The position numbers were made by a program, and so were the translations under genes. A stretch of DNA of 64,000 nt from Acetobacterium sp. KB-1 (GTDB taxonomy: Bacteria > Bacillota > Clostridia > Eubacteriales > Eubacteriaceae): the NCBI RefSeq assembly GCF_003260995.1, contig NZ_CP030040.1, positions 333,387-397,386 of the forward strand. Direction: 5' to 3'. Positions within the stretch are counted from its first letter, which is position 1. Each line of letters begins with the position of its first letter. The notes below the pieces were generated by a model. It saw only the letters and a list, made by a program, of their open reading frames with translations, had not been told where the DNA came from and made no database searches. Positions 44,509 to 51,930 of this stretch are shown in pieces.

Positions 44509-45477
44509 TCAATCGTAGTGAATACCGCCCCAGTAAACCGGGCTTTTGACGATGGTGCGGGGATCCAGTTCCACGCCTTCCATAGCCCACTTTTTATATT
44601 CTTCAAAGCCAGTGCGGTCGATGATGTAGCCGATGTGTTCTTTGCCGCCGGGTGCTTCCCGATTGATGTAGTTTTCTACAAATCGATAGGTATTTTTAAT
44701 AATTTTGACAATCGCGTCTTCGGTCGCCCAAACCAGAAAATCTTCGGCCAGCCGGGGGTTTCGTTTTCCGGTTCGTCCCATAATCGCCAATCGGTAGTAG
44801 GTTTCCGGGCTGCGGGTCCAGGCCCGGGTTGGGCAGTTGATCACACATTCGCCACAGCCGACACATTTTTCGGTGTTTCGGACAATTCGGTAATTCTCTA
44901 CTGACAAAGCATCCACCGATTTTTTCTGGCAGGCTTTAACACAGGCCAGACAACCCATGCAGCGTTCTTTTTGATACTGGGGTTCGGTCATCCCGATGAT
45001 CCCAAAATCCTGCATCCGGGTTTTGATGCAGTCATTGGCACAGCCGGTGAAGGCGACCTTAAAATGGAGATCATTGGGAAAGATTTCCTGCTCCATTTTC
45101 TTGGCAAAATTAGTGGTATTATAGGTGGCAAATGGACAGGTATTACTGCCGATACAGGCAGAGATATTGCGCGTGCCGGCTGCGGTATAGCCTTTGCCTG
45201 GGATTTCCTGATTAATATCCAATTTATCAATAATCGGCTGTAGCAGCGCATTGACGGCGTCCATATCGGTATATTTAATACCCGGGATTTCAAAGCCCTG
45301 ACGGGTGGTTAAATGGATGCGGCCATTGCCATAGGTTTTTGCAATGTTTTGAATCAGCGGCAGCAGTTCCGCCGTTAATAAGCCGCCGGGAACCCGGACT
45401 CGTGAGGCGGTTTCCCCACGGACCTTGGTGACGCGATAGGCATTCTTCTTTATCTTCTTGGTATTTAGATCTAACAT
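44509..45477 (-). CDS. asrC: Anaerobic sulfite reductase subunit C (siroheme subunit)
   Basis: 322 residues. The sulfite/nitrite reductase fold with the siroheme-4Fe-4S ligand set CIGSNTC plus CANDC (C-x5-C...C-x3-C) and two added ferredoxin clusters CMGCLACVKACQ and CVGCGECVINCP. It catalyses six-electron reduction of sulfite to sulfide. The gene lies 10 bp after asrB in an asrA-asrB-asrC operon on the minus strand. GGAGGAG precedes its ATG. Confidence 0.95.
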   Translation of the reverse strand: MLDLNTKKIKKNAYRVTKVRGETASRVRVPGGLLTAELLPLIQNIAKTYGNGRIHLTTRQGFEIPGIKYTDMDAVNALLQPIIDKLDINQEIPGKGYTAAGTRNISACIGSNTCPFATYNTTNFAKKMEQEIFPNDLHFKVAFTGCANDCIKTRMQDFGIIGMTEPQYQKERCMGCLACVKACQKKSVDALSVENYRIVRNTEKCVGCGECVINCPTRAWTRSPETYYRLAIMGRTGKRNPRLAEDFLVWATEDAIVKIIKNTYRFVENYINREAPGGKEHIGYIIDRTGFEEYKKWAMEGVELDPRTIVKSPVYWGGIHYD

Positions 45478-45487
45478 GGCACTCCTC

Positions 45488-46315
45488 CTAATCCTTTAAA
45501 AATTTTCCCTTGGTGTAGTTAAAAACCGGACCGTCCAGACAAATATAGGTATCATCGATTTTACAGTGACCGCATTTACCAATGCCACAGCACATTTTTC
45601 GCTCCTGGGAGATCCAGATATTTTCTTCTTTGAATCCGACATTAAAAAGCTCGGTGATCGTGCATTTCATCATCATCGGTGGTCCCACCACAATCCCGAT
45701 CGCTTCGTCAGTGTTTTTAATCGGGATTTCCGGAATGTATTGGGTAACCAGTCCGCATTTGCCGCAATAGCCATCGACCGGGGTATCCACGGTCATAATG
45801 ACATTGATGTTTTTTTCCCACTCTTTGAAGTCTTTTTTAAAGAGGACATCGTTGGGCGATTTAAAACCTACTAACAGGGTAAAACTTTTGCAGTCGTTGG
45901 GATGGGCCGAAAAATAATCGACGATCCCTTTCACTGGCGAAAGACCGGTGCCGCCAGCAACCAGAATAATTTCTTTGCCCATATAGTTGGTGATATCAAA
46001 GCCATTGCCATAGGGTCCCCGAAGGAACAGGGTATCGCCGACATAATTTTCGAAGATTTCATCCGTAACCTTGCCGACTTTACGAATGGTCAGATCAACC
46101 GTGCCATTACCGATGCCGCTGACCGAAATGGGGGCTTCGCCAAACTTGGGTAGCGATACCTCAAAAAATTGTCCCGGTTTGACCTCGCCGCGATAGGTCA
46201 TCCGGAAGGTAAACTCAATTTCAGTATGTTTGATCACGTCGACGATTTCCGAAAGGAAAGGAAGATAAGGATTATCTGAATTCGTTGTATGAGACGCAGT
46301 TGTTGTCGCAGTCAT
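45488..46315 (-). CDS. asrB: Anaerobic sulfite reductase subunit B (flavoprotein)
   Basis: 275 residues of the ferredoxin-NADP reductase family. FAD-binding RGPYGNGFDI, NAD-binding LVAGGTGLSPVKGI, and a C-terminal iron-sulfur Cys set in MCCGIGKCGHCKI followed by CLDGPVF. It passes electrons from NADH to AsrA and AsrC. Its ATG directly follows the asrA stop codon, so translation is coupled. Confidence 0.94.
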   Translation of the reverse strand: MTATTTASHTTNSDNPYLPFLSEIVDVIKHTEIEFTFRMTYRGEVKPGQFFEVSLPKFGEAPISVSGIGNGTVDLTIRKVGKVTDEIFENYVGDTLFLRGPYGNGFDITNYMGKEIILVAGGTGLSPVKGIVDYFSAHPNDCKSFTLLVGFKSPNDVLFKKDFKEWEKNINVIMTVDTPVDGYCGKCGLVTQYIPEIPIKNTDEAIGIVVGPPMMMKCTITELFNVGFKEENIWISQERKMCCGIGKCGHCKIDDTYICLDGPVFNYTKGKFLKD

Positions 46316-47329
46316 TTAAATTTCCTCCTTTGCAGCATCATTTACCAAATCACTCAGTTTATTGATGCAATTGGCAAAAGAAATATATTCCGGACAGACA
46401 TCGTCGCAGCGGCCGCAGCCAATACACATATGGGTGCCGAAGCGTCGTTTATAATCGTTTATCTTGTGCATCACCTTAAAGCGCATCCGTTGGCCCTTGT
46501 CATTTCGAAACGCATGTCCGCCGGCCATATCAGTGTAGCCATCAACATGACAGGAAGCCCAAACCCGCCGCCGTTCGCCGGCTTTGCCGTTGTCGGTGTA
46601 GAAAATATCCTGCATTGTGAAGCAGGTACAGGTGGGACAAACAAAGTTGCATCGTCCGCAGGCAATGCAACGGTTGCCGTAATCTTCCCAGAATGGAGCG
46701 TCAAACAGGGTCTGGGGAACCGTTTCGGAAATCGTCACGACGGTGTCATTGGCGGTGACAGAATCAGGAATCACTGATGATGGTGTTGCACCGGCCAAAG
46801 CGGTGTCCAGGAGATCCCAGTGACTGTCAACCAGCACGGTTTCACCATCAACCTTTATGTAAGCGTCATAGTCGTCGCTTTTCTGGGTGCCCATCGAAAC
46901 GCAGAAACAGTTTTCAAAGGAATTTTCGCAGCCGATTAAAATAAATTTGGTCTGATCCCGCAGCCTTTTGTAATAGCTATCGACAGCGCCGTTTTCCAGA
47001 TAAATGGTATCCATTCGTTTAAGACCGTGCAGATCACAGCTACGTAAAAACACAATCGCCCCTTTTTGGGGCACATCAGACTCCTTTATTTCATTTTCAG
47101 TAAAATAAAAAAGTGTTTCAGAGATGGGGAGTAAGACCTCTTTAAAAGAGTAGTCTGATTTTTCGGCAAATTCGATTTCAGATAGATCTGCGATTTCGCC
47201 GTAACGAATGGTGTCGATATCGGTAAAGGTGCCATCGCCGACAAACCGCTTGGGGGCATAAATAATGAAGTCTTTTGAAAGGTCAGAAAAAATAGCATTG
47301 ATTTTCTCTGGCGTAGTTTGGTAACCCAT
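46316..47329 (-). CDS. asrA: Anaerobic sulfite reductase subunit A (iron-sulfur subunit)
   Basis: 337 residues from the ATG whose first base is 47329; AAGGAGG lies 8 nt upstream and overlaps the weaker in-frame TTG start at 47347. Two 4Fe-4S clusters, CIACGRCNFVCPTCTCF (about residues 223-240) and CIGCGRCDDVCPEY (near 305), mark the AsrA electron carrier. It transfers electrons between AsrB and AsrC. First gene of the asr operon; the 183-bp gap behind it holds a hairpin and the relic repeat E. Confidence 0.94.
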   Translation of the reverse strand: MGYQTTPEKINAIFSDLSKDFIIYAPKRFVGDGTFTDIDTIRYGEIADLSEIEFAEKSDYSFKEVLLPISETLFYFTENEIKESDVPQKGAIVFLRSCDLHGLKRMDTIYLENGAVDSYYKRLRDQTKFILIGCENSFENCFCVSMGTQKSDDYDAYIKVDGETVLVDSHWDLLDTALAGATPSSVIPDSVTANDTVVTISETVPQTLFDAPFWEDYGNRCIACGRCNFVCPTCTCFTMQDIFYTDNGKAGERRRVWASCHVDGYTDMAGGHAFRNDKGQRMRFKVMHKINDYKRRFGTHMCIGCGRCDDVCPEYISFANCINKLSDLVNDAAKEEI

Positions 47330-47370
47330 AAACAAGTCCTCCTTCAAGTTTTTTGGTAATCATTGCGGTA

Positions 47371-47421
47371 AAGAGTGAAGTCTGCCAAAGGCCCTTTTCA
47401 GGGGAGTTTTGACAGACTTTT
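47371..47421. other. Hairpin in the hcp-asrA gap
   Basis: AAGTCTG and CAGACTT form the outer arms, with CAAA/TTTG and CCC/GGG further in. There is no T-run on the minus strand after it, so it is probably not a terminator; it could be part of the asrA leader. Confidence 0.35.
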
Positions 47422-47437
47422 AATTTGGTTGATGATG

Positions 47438-47491
47438 TTAACAATTGATCGGTACGGTAGTATAAAGAAAACCCGATGGTACCGACCACAC
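47438..47491. repeat. Relic ends of the palindromic repeat (copy E)
   Basis: TTAACAATTGATCGGTAC (47438-47455) is the right end of the repeat family; 23 bp later GTACCGACCA (from 47479) is a left-type end. No body lies between, so this looks like remnants of one or two decayed copies. Confidence 0.6.
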
Positions 47492-47512
47492 TTTTTCAAT
47501 AGCGAGTTGGTT

Positions 47513-49069
47513 TTAACCCAGTAATTTTGCCATATCAGCTTCTGGGGTGGTGATTGGTCCGATGTTGTAGTTTTCAACCAGCACGTTTAAAACGTTGGGT
47601 GAAATAAAAGCGGGTAGTGATGGTCCTAATAAGATGTTCTTGATGCCGAGGTGTAACAGGGTCAGTAAGATACAAACCGCTTTTTGTTCGTACCAGGATA
47701 AGACCATGCTTAGCGGTAATTCGTTAACATCGCAATCAAAAGCGCCAGCCAGAGCCACAGCCACCTGAATGGCCGAGTAAGCATCATTGCATTGGCCCAT
47801 ATCCATCAGTCGTGGCAAGCCGCCGATGGTGCCCAGATCAAGATCGTTGAAGCGGTATTTACCACAGGCCAGGGTTAAGACAATCGTATCAGCCGGTGTT
47901 TTTTCAACAAATTCGGTGTAGTAGTTACGTCCGGTTTTAGCCCCGTCACAGCCTCCAACCAGGAAGAAGTGTTTGATATCGCCAGCTTTAACAGCCGCGA
48001 TAACCTTGTCAGCAACGCCTAAAACAGTGCCATGACCAAATCCGGTTAATAGTGTTTTACCGCCATTGATGCCGGTCATTTCCTTATCTTCCGGGTATCC
48101 GCCCAGTTCCAGCGCTTTTTTTATCACTGGGGCAAAATCTTTTTCTTTGCCAACATGGATCATGTCGGGGTATTGAACCACATCGGTGGTGAAAATACGG
48201 TCAGAATAGCTTTCTTTCACTGGCATAATACAGTTGGTGGTGAAAAGAACCGGGGCTGGTACAGCAGCGAATTCTTTTTGCTGGTTTTGCCAGGCTGTCC
48301 CAAAGTTTCCTTTTAAGTGGGTATGTTTTTTGAGTCCTGGATAAGCATGGGCTGGCAGCATTTCACCGTGAGTATAAATATTGATGCCCTTGCCTTCGGT
48401 TTGTTCCAGCAATAATTTTAAATCATGTAAATCATGACCCGTGATGATAATAAAAGGTCCTTTTTCAATGGTTAATGGCACTTCTGTTGGTACCGGGGTG
48501 CCATAGGTTTCGGTATTAGCTTTATCCAGCAATGCCATGCATTTTAAATTAATTTCGCCGGTTTTGAGTACTAGTGGCAGTAACACGTCCATGCCCAGAT
48601 CAGAGCCGACAGCAGCGAGTGCTTCATAGAAGAAGGCATCGACTTCAGGGTCGTTGTAACCCAGGATTGCGGCATGATGAGCATAGGCAGCCACTCCTTT
48701 AACACCTAAAAGGATCAGCGTTTTCAGGGATCGAATATCTTCATTATCATCCCAGAGTTTTGCCATATCATAATCTTCGGCGGTTGGATCCAGATCAGCT
48801 TTCATTTTGTCAACACAGTCTACCATTACTTTAAGACTCTCATCATCAAAACTGACATTGGTAACAGTAGTGAATAATGCTTTTTTGATACAGGCGTCGG
48901 TGGCCGGGGTAGCCGCTGTTTTTTTTACGGCTTTAGACAGCCCAATACAGGCACCGACTAATTTATCCTGGAGACCGGCAACTGGCGCTGTTTTACCACA
49001 GACTCCCTTGACCTCACATCCGGTTCCTTTGGCAGTCTGTTCACATTGAAAACAAAACATGTCTTTCAT
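47513..49069 (-). CDS. hcp: Hydroxylamine reductase / hybrid-cluster protein
   Basis: 518 residues. The N-terminal CFQCEQTAKGTGCEVKGVC (C-x2-C-x8-C-x5-C) holds the cubane cluster; later Cys and His residues for the hybrid cluster are in TGHDLHDL, FTTNCIMP, GCDGA and LACGKYRF. Hcp reduces hydroxylamine or NO and protects against nitrosative stress. A GAGAGG ribosome site lies before the ATG. It is on the same strand as asrABC, upstream of it, but with a 183-bp gap; co-transcription is uncertain. The divergent intergenic region carries a palindrome that could be its operator. Confidence 0.95.
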   Translation of the reverse strand: MKDMFCFQCEQTAKGTGCEVKGVCGKTAPVAGLQDKLVGACIGLSKAVKKTAATPATDACIKKALFTTVTNVSFDDESLKVMVDCVDKMKADLDPTAEDYDMAKLWDDNEDIRSLKTLILLGVKGVAAYAHHAAILGYNDPEVDAFFYEALAAVGSDLGMDVLLPLVLKTGEINLKCMALLDKANTETYGTPVPTEVPLTIEKGPFIIITGHDLHDLKLLLEQTEGKGINIYTHGEMLPAHAYPGLKKHTHLKGNFGTAWQNQQKEFAAVPAPVLFTTNCIMPVKESYSDRIFTTDVVQYPDMIHVGKEKDFAPVIKKALELGGYPEDKEMTGINGGKTLLTGFGHGTVLGVADKVIAAVKAGDIKHFFLVGGCDGAKTGRNYYTEFVEKTPADTIVLTLACGKYRFNDLDLGTIGGLPRLMDMGQCNDAYSAIQVAVALAGAFDCDVNELPLSMVLSWYEQKAVCILLTLLHLGIKNILLGPSLPAFISPNVLNVLVENYNIGPITTPEADMAKLLG

Positions 49070-49445: not shown

Positions 49446-51437
49446 ATGAGCCTGAAAATGAGTAAGTTGCTGGATATTGAAAAATACTTGTTGCTGGAAC
49501 TGGTTTATTTTCATTTGCCATCCCAGTATAAAAATCAGATTACCCGGGAAACCCCGATAAAATTGGATGAATATATCGATCTGATAGAGCAGTGTGGCTG
49601 TTCGACGTATCCTGGTTTTATTAGTCGCTCTCGGCATGGGAGCCAATACAAAAGAAGAAGGCAGGCTCATTTTAAGCGAATTTACGCATCCAGCGATAAC
49701 CTGGACGATGTTATTATTACTGGTTATCGTAATGATAATTATGGTTGCTACGGTAATTCCGACGATAAGATTAAATCCAGCTTTGTTGGCATTGCCATGG
49801 AAGACTGCGAAAATAACGGGGCGGTGGTTTTTAGCGGTTGTGAACAGATGGATCTCAGCAGTATTGTTCTGGACTGGGGCGGATGTCTGATTGCTTCGTT
49901 GGGCGTGGTCACCGCTCATCATCATAAAGCGATCGATTTTTTCGACTACTATATGACCGGGATTCTGGGGGAACGTAATCTTTTCGGACATTCTAAAGGT
50001 GGTAATCTGGCCACCTACGTTTATATCAATCGGCTTGACGAAAACACTAATGCTTATTGCGTTAATGCCCAGCCCTATTGTTGGTACACCATGAGTGACA
50101 GTCAGAAGGCGGCCTTAAAAACAGATCGATTTGAGTATATTGTTCATGCCAATGACCCCACTAGAAAGGCCAGCTATGTGTCTTATATCAGCCGTACGGC
50201 TCCTCTGAACCGCTATGCAAACCGACATTTTATTGATATTCATGGCTTTGCTGAGGTTAGTTTTGACGAATTTGGAAATCTGGAAGGTACCCGGGTTATC
50301 CGGGAAACCAATAGCCGACTGAAAACCCGATTTTTTAACGACTATGCCACTGAAAAGCGTTTGACCCACGATGAATGTTTGGCCCAGTTCCAGGAAAACA
50401 TTGACAAGATCATCTCACTGCCCCGGCTATTAAGCACTACCCTGGACGAAATCCTATTGGTAACCGAGGCTCAAGCGGCAATTATCTGGCTTCGAGATGA
50501 AGATACCCGGGGGTCATTTATTTATCCATTAATTATTAAAGGCCCCCGGGCAGAAGATCTTTATCAACTGAAACTGCGCCCGGGACAGGGGATTGCAGCC
50601 CAATCAGTCTTTGCTGGATTGCCACTATATATCAAAGATTTCCGTCACTACCGGCTACAGGTTGGTAGTCTGAAGCGAGCTATGGGTTTGACCATTACCT
50701 CTGAAATTGCGGTGCCGTTGGGAATTGATGAATCGGAGGTTTTTGGCGCCTTGGAGCTGGTTAACAAACAAAATGGTTTTTTTTCAGTGGAAGATTTTGC
50801 TCTGGTCAATGAAATGACCCTGGTAATGTTGGATGTCTTTAAAAAATCCGGTAAATCTCTGGATAATTATCGTGATTTTTCTTTGTTACAGATCCGAAAA
50901 GGTGGAAAGCCGATCTTTGCGGTGGAAAAGAACGGTTATCAGGAAGAAAACTTTATTACCCAAGAAGAGAAGAGCTTTTTTTTAAAAAAAATCATGGGTC
51001 AGTCTTTAGAATCCGATGAGCGGTTGATTTTTAACCGGGTCACATTTACCAGGAACAAGCAGGATCAGTTAAAACGATTGCGAAAGCAGGAATATGTGAT
51101 GATCTTTGAAAATTCGCATTTGCGGGTTAGCAAAACCCGGGTCAAGACAGTGTTGGTTGCGCTGCTTTTACATCTCCGGGAGAATCGGATCAACCTAAAT
51201 GCACTGGCAAGCATGATTGGTCTTGAGGACAAGATGAATACTTCTATTAAAGATCTTAGTGGCGCTGAATACATCCGCCTGGAATATGGCATGGCACGAA
51301 TCCGGCGACCCCAATTGATTATTGTCAACACCCCGCCTCGGGGTGTTAGTACCGCCGCCTTTTTGGCTTTGTGCAGTCGACTTAAGAAAGACTGCGAGAA
51401 GAAAGTGGCCACTGTGATTGTACTTACGGACAAATGA
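49446..51437 (+). CDS. DUF2974 hydrolase-like / GAF / degenerate ABC ATPase fusion
   Basis: 663 residues from ATG 49446 (GAGGA 5 nt upstream). Residues 1-310 form an alpha/beta hydrolase of the DUF2974 (Mbeg1-like) type with nucleophile motif FGHSKGGNLATY (Ser near 182). Residues about 315-450 are a GAF domain (TEAQAAIIWLRDED, RPGQGIAAQSVFAGLPLY, EVFGALELVNKQNGFFS). From about 455 the order of an ABC ATPase can be followed, but every catalytic motif is altered: Walker A region ITQEEKSFFLKKIMG lacks its glycines, the Q-loop position reads FENSHL, the signature is DLSGAEYIRL, Walker B ends LIIVNTPPRGV instead of DEP, and the H-loop reads VLTDK. ATP hydrolysis is not expected. Nothing like this architecture is known to me. 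A HAD gene follows 19 bp on. Confidence 0.75.
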   Translation: MSLKMSKLLDIEKYLLLELVYFHLPSQYKNQITRETPIKLDEYIDLIEQCGCSTYPGFISRSRHGSQYKRRRQAHFKRIYASSDNLDDVIITGYRNDNYGCYGNSDDKIKSSFVGIAMEDCENNGAVVFSGCEQMDLSSIVLDWGGCLIASLGVVTAHHHKAIDFFDYYMTGILGERNLFGHSKGGNLATYVYINRLDENTNAYCVNAQPYCWYTMSDSQKAALKTDRFEYIVHANDPTRKASYVSYISRTAPLNRYANRHFIDIHGFAEVSFDEFGNLEGTRVIRETNSRLKTRFFNDYATEKRLTHDECLAQFQENIDKIISLPRLLSTTLDEILLVTEAQAAIIWLRDEDTRGSFIYPLIIKGPRAEDLYQLKLRPGQGIAAQSVFAGLPLYIKDFRHYRLQVGSLKRAMGLTITSEIAVPLGIDESEVFGALELVNKQNGFFSVEDFALVNEMTLVMLDVFKKSGKSLDNYRDFSLLQIRKGGKPIFAVEKNGYQEENFITQEEKSFFLKKIMGQSLESDERLIFNRVTFTRNKQDQLKRLRKQEYVMIFENSHLRVSKTRVKTVLVALLLHLRENRINLNALASMIGLEDKMNTSIKDLSGAEYIRLEYGMARIRRPQLIIVNTPPRGVSTAAFLALCSRLKKDCEKKVATVIVLTDK

Positions 51438-51456: not shown

Positions 51457-51930
51457 ATGATAAATCTAAAAATTCCCGGCTATGAGACCATCACAGTTGA
51501 GCATGTGACCTTTGATTATAACGGTACCCTGGCAGTCGATGGCTTTCTGGTGAAGGGGCTTAAAGAAAGACTGGTGGCTCTTACAAAGCTGGGGGTGGAC
51601 GTGTATATTCTTACCGCTGATACCTTTGGTCTGGTGCGAAAGCAATGCGGAGATCTGCCGGTGACCATTGAGATTTTTTCAAAAGATAATATTTCAAAAA
51701 AGAAAAAAGCCTTCGTTGAGTCGATCGGTGGAGCGACTAATGTTGCCATCGGAAACGGCAACAATGACCGGGAAATGTTTTTAGAAAGCCGGCTTTCCAT
51801 CGCTGTGATCGGAACTGAAGGCTGTTTTGCAAAGTCACTGCTGGCAGCGGATATTGTCGTGAACAGTCCGCTGGATGCTCTGGATTTATTATTAAACTCA
51901 GACCGGATGGTCGCTACTCTAAGGACGTAG
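51457..51930 (+). CDS. Small HAD-family hydrolase
   Basis: 157 residues from ATG 51457 with GAGAGG upstream. HAD motif I is FDYNGTLAVDG (Asp nucleophile position present but the second Asp is replaced by Asn), motif II TADT, and motif IV GNGNNDREMF. It resembles the soluble P-type-ATPase-like HAD proteins of Firmicutes, which lack a cap domain. It is 19 bp after the pseudo-ABC fusion gene, so the two are probably co-transcribed. Substrate unknown. Confidence 0.8.
   Translation: MINLKIPGYETITVEHVTFDYNGTLAVDGFLVKGLKERLVALTKLGVDVYILTADTFGLVRKQCGDLPVTIEIFSKDNISKKKKAFVESIGGATNVAIGNGNNDREMFLESRLSIAVIGTEGCFAKSLLAADIVVNSPLDALDLLLNSDRMVATLRT

Follow-up and report, generated by a model that had tools for sequence, protein, structure and literature searches.

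A GAF-linked hydrolase of Acetobacterium that ends in a degenerate ABC ATPase domain

Introduction

Few protein domains are as common as the ABC ATPase, and the locus studied here raises the question of what such a domain might do at the end of a hydrolase once its ATP site has decayed. The locus lies in a stretch of 64,000 nucleotides from Acetobacterium sp. KB-1 (NZ_CP030040.1, positions 333,387 to 397,386), called the window below, and all coordinates are those of the window. The gene occupies 49446..51437 on the forward strand, encodes 663 amino acids as one open reading frame and is present at full length in 17 of the 19 Acetobacterium genomes. A sequence-only reading of the window had described its product as a DUF2974 hydrolase and a GAF sensor fused to a complete but catalytically dead ABC ATPase, and had suggested that the HAD gene downstream may work with it.

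Results and Discussion

Gene and domain order

The ATG at 49446 is preceded by a Shine-Dalgarno-like AGGA and the stop codon lies at 51435-51437; the mechanical ORF list places the start at an upstream GTG (49419). A scan for promoters and terminators returned a number of sites not above that in shuffled sequence. Inspection by eye of the 663-residue protein revealed no evident signal peptide or membrane segment.

Profile searches recovered a hydrolase, a GAF domain and an ABC ATPase. The domain order is Mbeg1-like (DUF2974) alpha/beta hydrolase, GAF, pseudo-ABC, which confirms the fusion that had been claimed. Pfam accounts for the first two parts, with the GAF match above its cut-off and both families matching all 16 copies at an E value of 0.1, and profile comparison accounts for the ABC part. 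Each single part is of a known kind; the plan is new as far as our searches go, and it was not found in the open-licence literature of PubMed Central, in which the plan or its parts were sought. Because the full-length structure prediction was poor (pLDDT 46, from an alignment of eight rows), the arrangement of the domains is not readable from it.

The hydrolase domain

The hydrolase comprises residues 1-300 (49446..50345, forward strand) and was matched by PF11187 in 16 of 16 copies at an E value of 0.1. The window protein itself aligned with the Pfam Mbeg1-like profile over residues 152-195 (E 0.001, 19.0 bits), under the cut-off of 21.1 bits; scored together with its neighbours it reached 20.7 and 21.1 bits. 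That cut-off is passed by 12 of the 14 copies listed, a set without G001, G004 and G008, with scores of up to 32.4 bits, while G009 and G012 fall below it. By this profile, the hydrolase part belongs to PF11187.

Ser183, within the motif GHSKGG, and Asp237 are invariant in all 19 rows of an alignment that includes three Bacillaceae proteins, and His266 is present in 18, the remaining row ending before that position. These conserved residues would form a Ser-Asp-His triad, with roles assigned by comparison with TslA. Excerpts of the report on TslA (PMC10730906) describe a proven phospholipase A that is secreted by the type VII system (T7SS), has the triad Ser164/Asp224/His251 and ends in a helical secretion domain. 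The two triads are alike in order and spacing, and the window protein has no C-terminal helical secretion domain of the TslA type, ending instead in the GAF and pseudo-ABC domains.

Pfam also assigns the three Bacillaceae relatives to the Mbeg1-like family. GHSKGG and the conserved Ser, Asp and His are common to the window protein and Mbeg1-like hydrolases, and two of the three Bacillaceae members also share its N-terminal MSL..EEK..LL region. The other Mbeg1-like matches listed from 40 genomes of the family lie in open frames of 229-550 amino acids, compared to 663 here, and no such match in the genus was seen together with GAF and ABC parts. In passages of the source publication (PMC6867899), the name Mbeg1 is traced to a microbiome effector gene of Gemella sanguinis, and part of a review (PMC11878206) counts the Mbeg1-like family among alpha/beta hydrolases with permuted strands. 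When the hydrolase profile was compared with the PDB at an E value of 0.1, the sole match was the structure of a type VI secretion system (T6SS) lipase effector (1e-4). The enzyme would be expected to act as an esterase or lipase on acyl esters or phospholipids. Separately, in a Bacillus Mbeg1-like hydrolase (L055, 5001-6404) the hydrolase is followed by a long C-terminal stretch of helical appearance to the eye, so that this protein may, like TslA, be a T7SS lipase of the reverse-order type.

The GAF domain

Residues 324-457 (50415..50816, forward strand) matched PF13185 (7.4e-12) and PF01590 (4.6e-7), and the domain is present in 16 of 16 copies. The score against GAF_2 (PF13185) was 46.1 bits, well above the cut-off of 28.6, and the domain presumably senses a ligand. 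Among 398 genomes of the phylum there were seven GAF matches, with scores of up to 60 bits, all of them in proteins with an HDxGK motif, which are HD-GYP-like. The GAF domains are similar, but the window protein has a hydrolase before the GAF domain and a pseudo-ABC domain after it.

The C-terminal domain descends from ABC ATPases

The pseudo-ABC domain extends from the first strand to the H-loop (residues about 477-663; 50874..51434, forward strand). Single-sequence evidence for it is weak, because Pfam ABC_tran matched only four of 16 copies at an E value of 0.1 (best 1.2e-4). In the window protein that match covered residues 509-627 (E 0.0079, 17.2 bits) and lay under the cut-off of 25. Of the NCBIfam models, FtsE matched the C-terminus best (1.8e-8), followed by DevA, UrtD and LolD, all far under their family cut-offs.

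Comparison of profiles was far clearer. A 16-row profile of the C-terminus aligned by hhalign with seven canonical ABC ATPases at 98.5% probability and E 1.8e-15 over 171 columns, columns 38-209 against 34-208. On rerun the score was 90, compared to a maximum of 23 in 100 column shuffles (mean 14.7, sd 2.7) and 13.8 for the reversed profile, and the C-terminal alignment run as a control against the protein's own hydrolase alignment gave 0.4%. The scores, the shuffles and this control rule out a chance likeness. Searching the PDB with a profile of residues 455-663 from the 16 copies gave 14 sequences at E <=0.01, with BceA the best (1.6e-7) and PsdA, YtrE, FtsE, OppD and the RNase L inhibitor also among them; we take all 14 to be ABC ATPases, one row being titled only 'ATPase'.

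A structural model of residues 455-663 had the fold of an ABC ATPase (pLDDT 89.4, pTM 0.82). Its top Foldseek matches were chains of LolCDE, an Aquifex ABC ATPase, MlaFEDB and BceABS, and by VIA-align it superimposed on an MlaFB entry with Z 16.3 (3.4 A over 185 residues) and on YbbAP and FtsEX entries with Z 15.9, tied with several other ABC ATPases. The alignment behind the model held 32 rows, five from Acetobacterium and 27 from canonical ABC proteins. The structure check thus agrees with the predicted fold while being biased by its ABC-rich, partly circular input; it indicates that the fold is compatible and is not proof, and the model-free profile evidence weighs more.

Judged by the profile comparisons, the C-terminal domain is a homologue of FtsE/LolD/BceA-type ABC ATPases. 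It shares their fold and the order of their elements from the first strand to the H-loop, over the 171 aligned profile columns. Those ATPases keep their catalytic motifs and the strands that follow the H-loop, whereas the window domain lacks both and is fused behind a hydrolase and a GAF domain.

Loss of the ATPase motifs

Motifs were mapped on 16 copies, the window copy included, aligned to 27 canonical ABC proteins, and the positions proposed in the sequence-only reading coincide with this alignment. The former Walker A occupies residues 503-510 (FITQEEKS; 50952..50975, forward strand, as are all motifs below). The three glycines of GxxGxGK[ST] are gone, being found in none of the 16 copies, and Lys509 is kept. 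The lysine position holds Lys in 13 copies, Arg in two and Gln in one, and is followed by Ser or Thr in a single copy, that of the window. At the Q-loop, residue 555 (51108..51110) is Glu, and no copy has Gln.

The former signature (residues 604-611, LSGAEYIR; 51255..51278) lacks the second Gly in all 16 copies. The first Gly survives in the window copy alone, 13 copies having Asp in its place, so that the window protein still reads L-S-G with only the second Gly and the Gln changed. The Walker B Asp and catalytic Glu are replaced by Asn-Thr at residues 628-629 (51327..51332); Asp is found in one of 16 copies, Glu in none, and the D-loop Asp in one. The H-loop position, residue 662 (51429..51431), is Asp. 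None of the 16 chain ends has a His at or after this place, and the chains stop 1-19 residues past the last strand (IVL or its equivalent).

The motifs of an active ABC ATPase (Walker A, LSGGQ, Walker B Asp/Glu, Q-loop and H-loop) are therefore not assembled in this domain. We call it a pseudo-ATPase because the ATP-site motifs are lost in all 16 copies and the chain stops just past the H-loop, and to judge from these residues ATP hydrolysis by the domain is very unlikely. The earlier statement that every motif is altered holds for Walker A, the Q-loop, Walker B and the H-loop; it goes too far for the signature, which keeps L-S-G in the window copy, and for Lys509. Calling the domain complete was also slightly too strong, since the domain stops at about the H-loop position and lacks the strands found beyond it in canonical ATPases. 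Homologues with intact ATPase motifs, which would speak against a dead domain, were absent among the 16 aligned copies.

Selection on a domain without its ATP site

The ratio dN/dS was estimated by NG86 for 11 pairs, several of which have dS >1 and are unreliable singly. It was 0.042-0.116 for the hydrolase (11 pairs), 0.027-0.117 for the GAF domain (10 pairs, one pair being without change) and 0.089-0.169 for the pseudo-ABC domain (11 pairs), narrowing to 0.089-0.146 in the seven pairs with pseudo-ABC dS <1. The signature/Walker B half of the pseudo-ABC domain taken alone gave 0.061-0.204. The pseudo-ABC domain is under purifying selection. Its dN was 1.1-4.1 times that of the hydrolase over the 11 pairs, which also fits a domain that has little to do.

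Of 17 copies, 16 are open to the same C-terminal strand, ruling out a sequencing error or a pseudogene. In one copy from a metagenome bin (L007, 1501-3483, the same as L053), the pseudo-ABC domain is interrupted by an in-frame TAG close to the old Walker B, beyond which the frame continues; this is either a real truncation or an assembly error.

The copies fall into two deep clades, between which identity is 0.75 in the hydrolase core and 0.65 in the GAF domain. Within the pseudo-ABC domain it is lowest at the old Walker A (0.35), the Q-loop and helical subdomain (0.36) and Walker B (0.41). The rest of the domain lies at 0.44-0.57, and the first strands, the P-loop helix, the signature helix and the last helix at 0.49-0.57. 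Across 16 rows from both clades, 37 residues within 460-660 are invariant, the invariant C-terminal residues including F529-N530-R531, Y609 and Y614, and none of the eight residues of the former Walker A segment is. Because the segments differ in this way, the part that is kept looks like the core of the fold and not like the ATP site or the side on which a permease would dock. As long as there is no reliable full-length structure to set it against, segment-wise conservation is weak guidance; with that qualification, the pattern indicates a domain maintained as a fold, with the ATP site freer to drift.

Distribution

The two Acetobacterium genomes without the protein are G006 (85% complete) and G007 (98% complete, 2.2 Mb). 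The 15 aligned orthologues are 56-81% identical to the window protein. No full-length relative was found in 42 genomes from outside the genus, where the best match (E 4.1e-9) covered the ABC part only, and none was found outside the genus among the matches listed in a scan of genome contigs. With the full-length profile at E 1e-10, three of 291 genomes sampled from the class matched, all three of them Acetobacterium. With a GAF-ABC profile at 1e-6, 18 of 398 phylum genomes matched: the own genome, seven through the GAF part and ten through the ABC part alone. Of 299 phylum genomes, 41 matched the C-terminal profile at 1e-5, one of them the own genome. From 19 of the other 40 the locus was taken, and all 19 loci hold an ABC ATPase with an intact Walker A and Walker B Asp-Glu. 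Homologues of the same domain order are thus found in Acetobacterium and not in the other genomes sampled, and the protein is confined to this genus among the genomes searched.

Links to phages, plasmids or defence were rejected: nothing matched in plasmids (tblastn, E 1e-10) or phages (tblastn, 1e-5), a scan of IMG/VR yielded 24 candidate stretches of which none was confirmed, and PADLOC reported nothing at 0.01.

Possible roles of the former ATPase domain

The explanation that we favour, and to which we give about an even chance, is a soluble, probably cytoplasmic esterase or lipase regulated by its GAF domain, with the dead ABC domain serving as a scaffold or lever. A serine hydrolase of the lipase/esterase type would have its activity set by the GAF domain. 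The former ATPase domain would no longer cycle ATP and would have kept its fold as a non-catalytic module, acting either as a scaffold for dimerisation or as a rigid lever that the GAF domain works against when it moves the hydrolase. A role in dimerisation or binding is plausible; the cytoplasmic location and the scaffold role are inferred.

It is unlikely, in our estimate, that the pseudo-ABC domain docks onto a permease of the FtsX/MacB/Bce type or pairs with its live ATPase, bringing a lipase to the membrane or braking a transporter as a cytoplasmic counterpart of YbbAP-TesA. The family of the domain invites the idea: its nearest profile relatives include BceA, PsdA, YtrE and FtsE, and by fold LolD, MlaF, BceA, FtsE and YbbA stand near it among many ABC ATPases tied in score. 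However, the coupling helices of permeases dock at the helical subdomain in known ABC systems, and here that subdomain is among the least conserved parts. No FtsX-domain match lies inside the window (the FtsX family alone was sought), and of the 14 FtsX-domain genes of the genome, 13 have an ABC ATPase match at a distance of no more than about 3 kb. An orphan permease as partner was rejected, since the only one of the 14 without a nearby FtsE-type ATPase, L189, is far from the gene. L189 (5974-9441) encodes an FtsX-domain permease of 1155 amino acids that looks partly coiled-coil-like by eye and has no FtsE-type ATPase beside it. In YbbAP-TesA, as portrayed in extracts of the published work (PMC12646458), such a transporter is coupled to a lipid hydrolase, so that a lipid-type hydrolase is associated with an FtsE/LolD-like ATPase as in the window protein. 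The differences are that its ATPase is live and works with a permease and a separate, periplasmic enzyme, while the window protein carries a dead ATPase domain on the same chain as a hydrolase that is not visibly exported.

We think it more doubtful still that a GAF-gated phospholipase inserts its dead ATPase subunit into a type VII-like ABC transporter or mimics half of one; if it did, lipid hydrolysis in the cytoplasm-facing part of the system would be coupled to membrane transport or lipid extraction.

There is little probability that the C-terminal domain merely represents an ABC gene that was fused by chance, is decaying and has no present role. The domain does change faster than the rest of the protein, only the Walker A lysine of the ATP-site residues stays in most copies (13 of 16), and the L007 copy from a metagenome-assembled genome has its stop inside the domain. 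A remnant would nevertheless be hard to reconcile with the low dN/dS over 11 pairs, with 37 invariant residues in two deep clades and with 16 of 17 copies reaching the same C-terminal strand. We attach an equally low probability to the domain being a second sensor, one in which the Walker A lysine supports an altered mode of binding to a nucleotide or some other phosphate ligand. Basic residues do predominate at that position (Lys 13/16, Arg 2/16), but the P-loop glycines, the catalytic Glu, the Q-loop Gln and the H-loop His are all gone, the Walker B Asp is gone in 15 of 16 copies, and not one residue of the former Walker A segment is invariant. Least probable is an exported antibacterial lipase resembling those effectors of type VI or type VII secretion that contain a hydrolase of this sort, which is suggested by the T6SS effector as the sole PDB match and by the helical-looking extension of the Bacillus relative, reminiscent of the helical C-terminal domain in the excerpted TslA report, and is opposed by the GAF and pseudo-ABC domains in place of such an extension and by gene contexts that differ between the two clades.

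In degenerate ABC exporters, one of the two sites of the transporter is altered. The window protein resembles them in having lost catalytic residues, to go by portions of a paper on such exporters (PMC7756269), and differs in that its entire ABC domain is dead and is not visibly part of a transporter. A wholly dead ABC domain kept by selection in a sensor-linked hydrolase would be a different fate from the loss of one site. Under the favoured scaffold or lever role, a motor would have been reused as a structural or regulatory module, in a compact system in which to ask what the ABC fold does without ATP.

Gene neighbourhood

A gene for a HAD-like protein of 157 amino acids begins 19 bp past the stop codon (51457..51930, forward strand). 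In other genomes, the neighbouring proteins were compared with those of the window and viewed by their first residues. In 12 of 17 genomes it is adjacent or one ORF away (the own genome, G001-G005, G008, G010, G011, G012, G015 and G018, the last at a contig end), with an extra ORF between the two genes in three of the 12 (G001, G003 and G005). The five deeper species have differing contexts; their HAD orthologue lies elsewhere (G009, G013, G016 and G017) or is missing (G014). Since it is elsewhere in four of 17 genomes and absent from one, the HAD gene is not an obligate neighbour, and its adjacency looks like gene order at the level of a clade. The proposal that it is a working partner is accordingly not supported, though the orthologue occurs in 16 of the 19 genomes, all 16 of which also have the hydrolase gene. 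Given this co-occurrence in 16 of 17 genomes, a functional link is possible. Matches of the HAD protein to domains of the HAD type, that of P-type ATPases included, were all weak. The protein has DYNGT where the usual HAD motif is DxDGT, and a Pfam search at 0.001, made from its third codon, returned nothing.

Nine of the 12 genomes have a divergent hcp-like gene upstream of the hydrolase gene, and the contigs of the other three do not show that place. In the window, the upstream region on the other strand (44509-49069) looks by eye like an asrABC sulfite reductase set with the hcp gene. In one of the deepest species (L078, 35-9147), the gene instead follows ORFs that resemble CheR and CheB by eye, behind a very long ORF, a signalling context unlike that of the other species.
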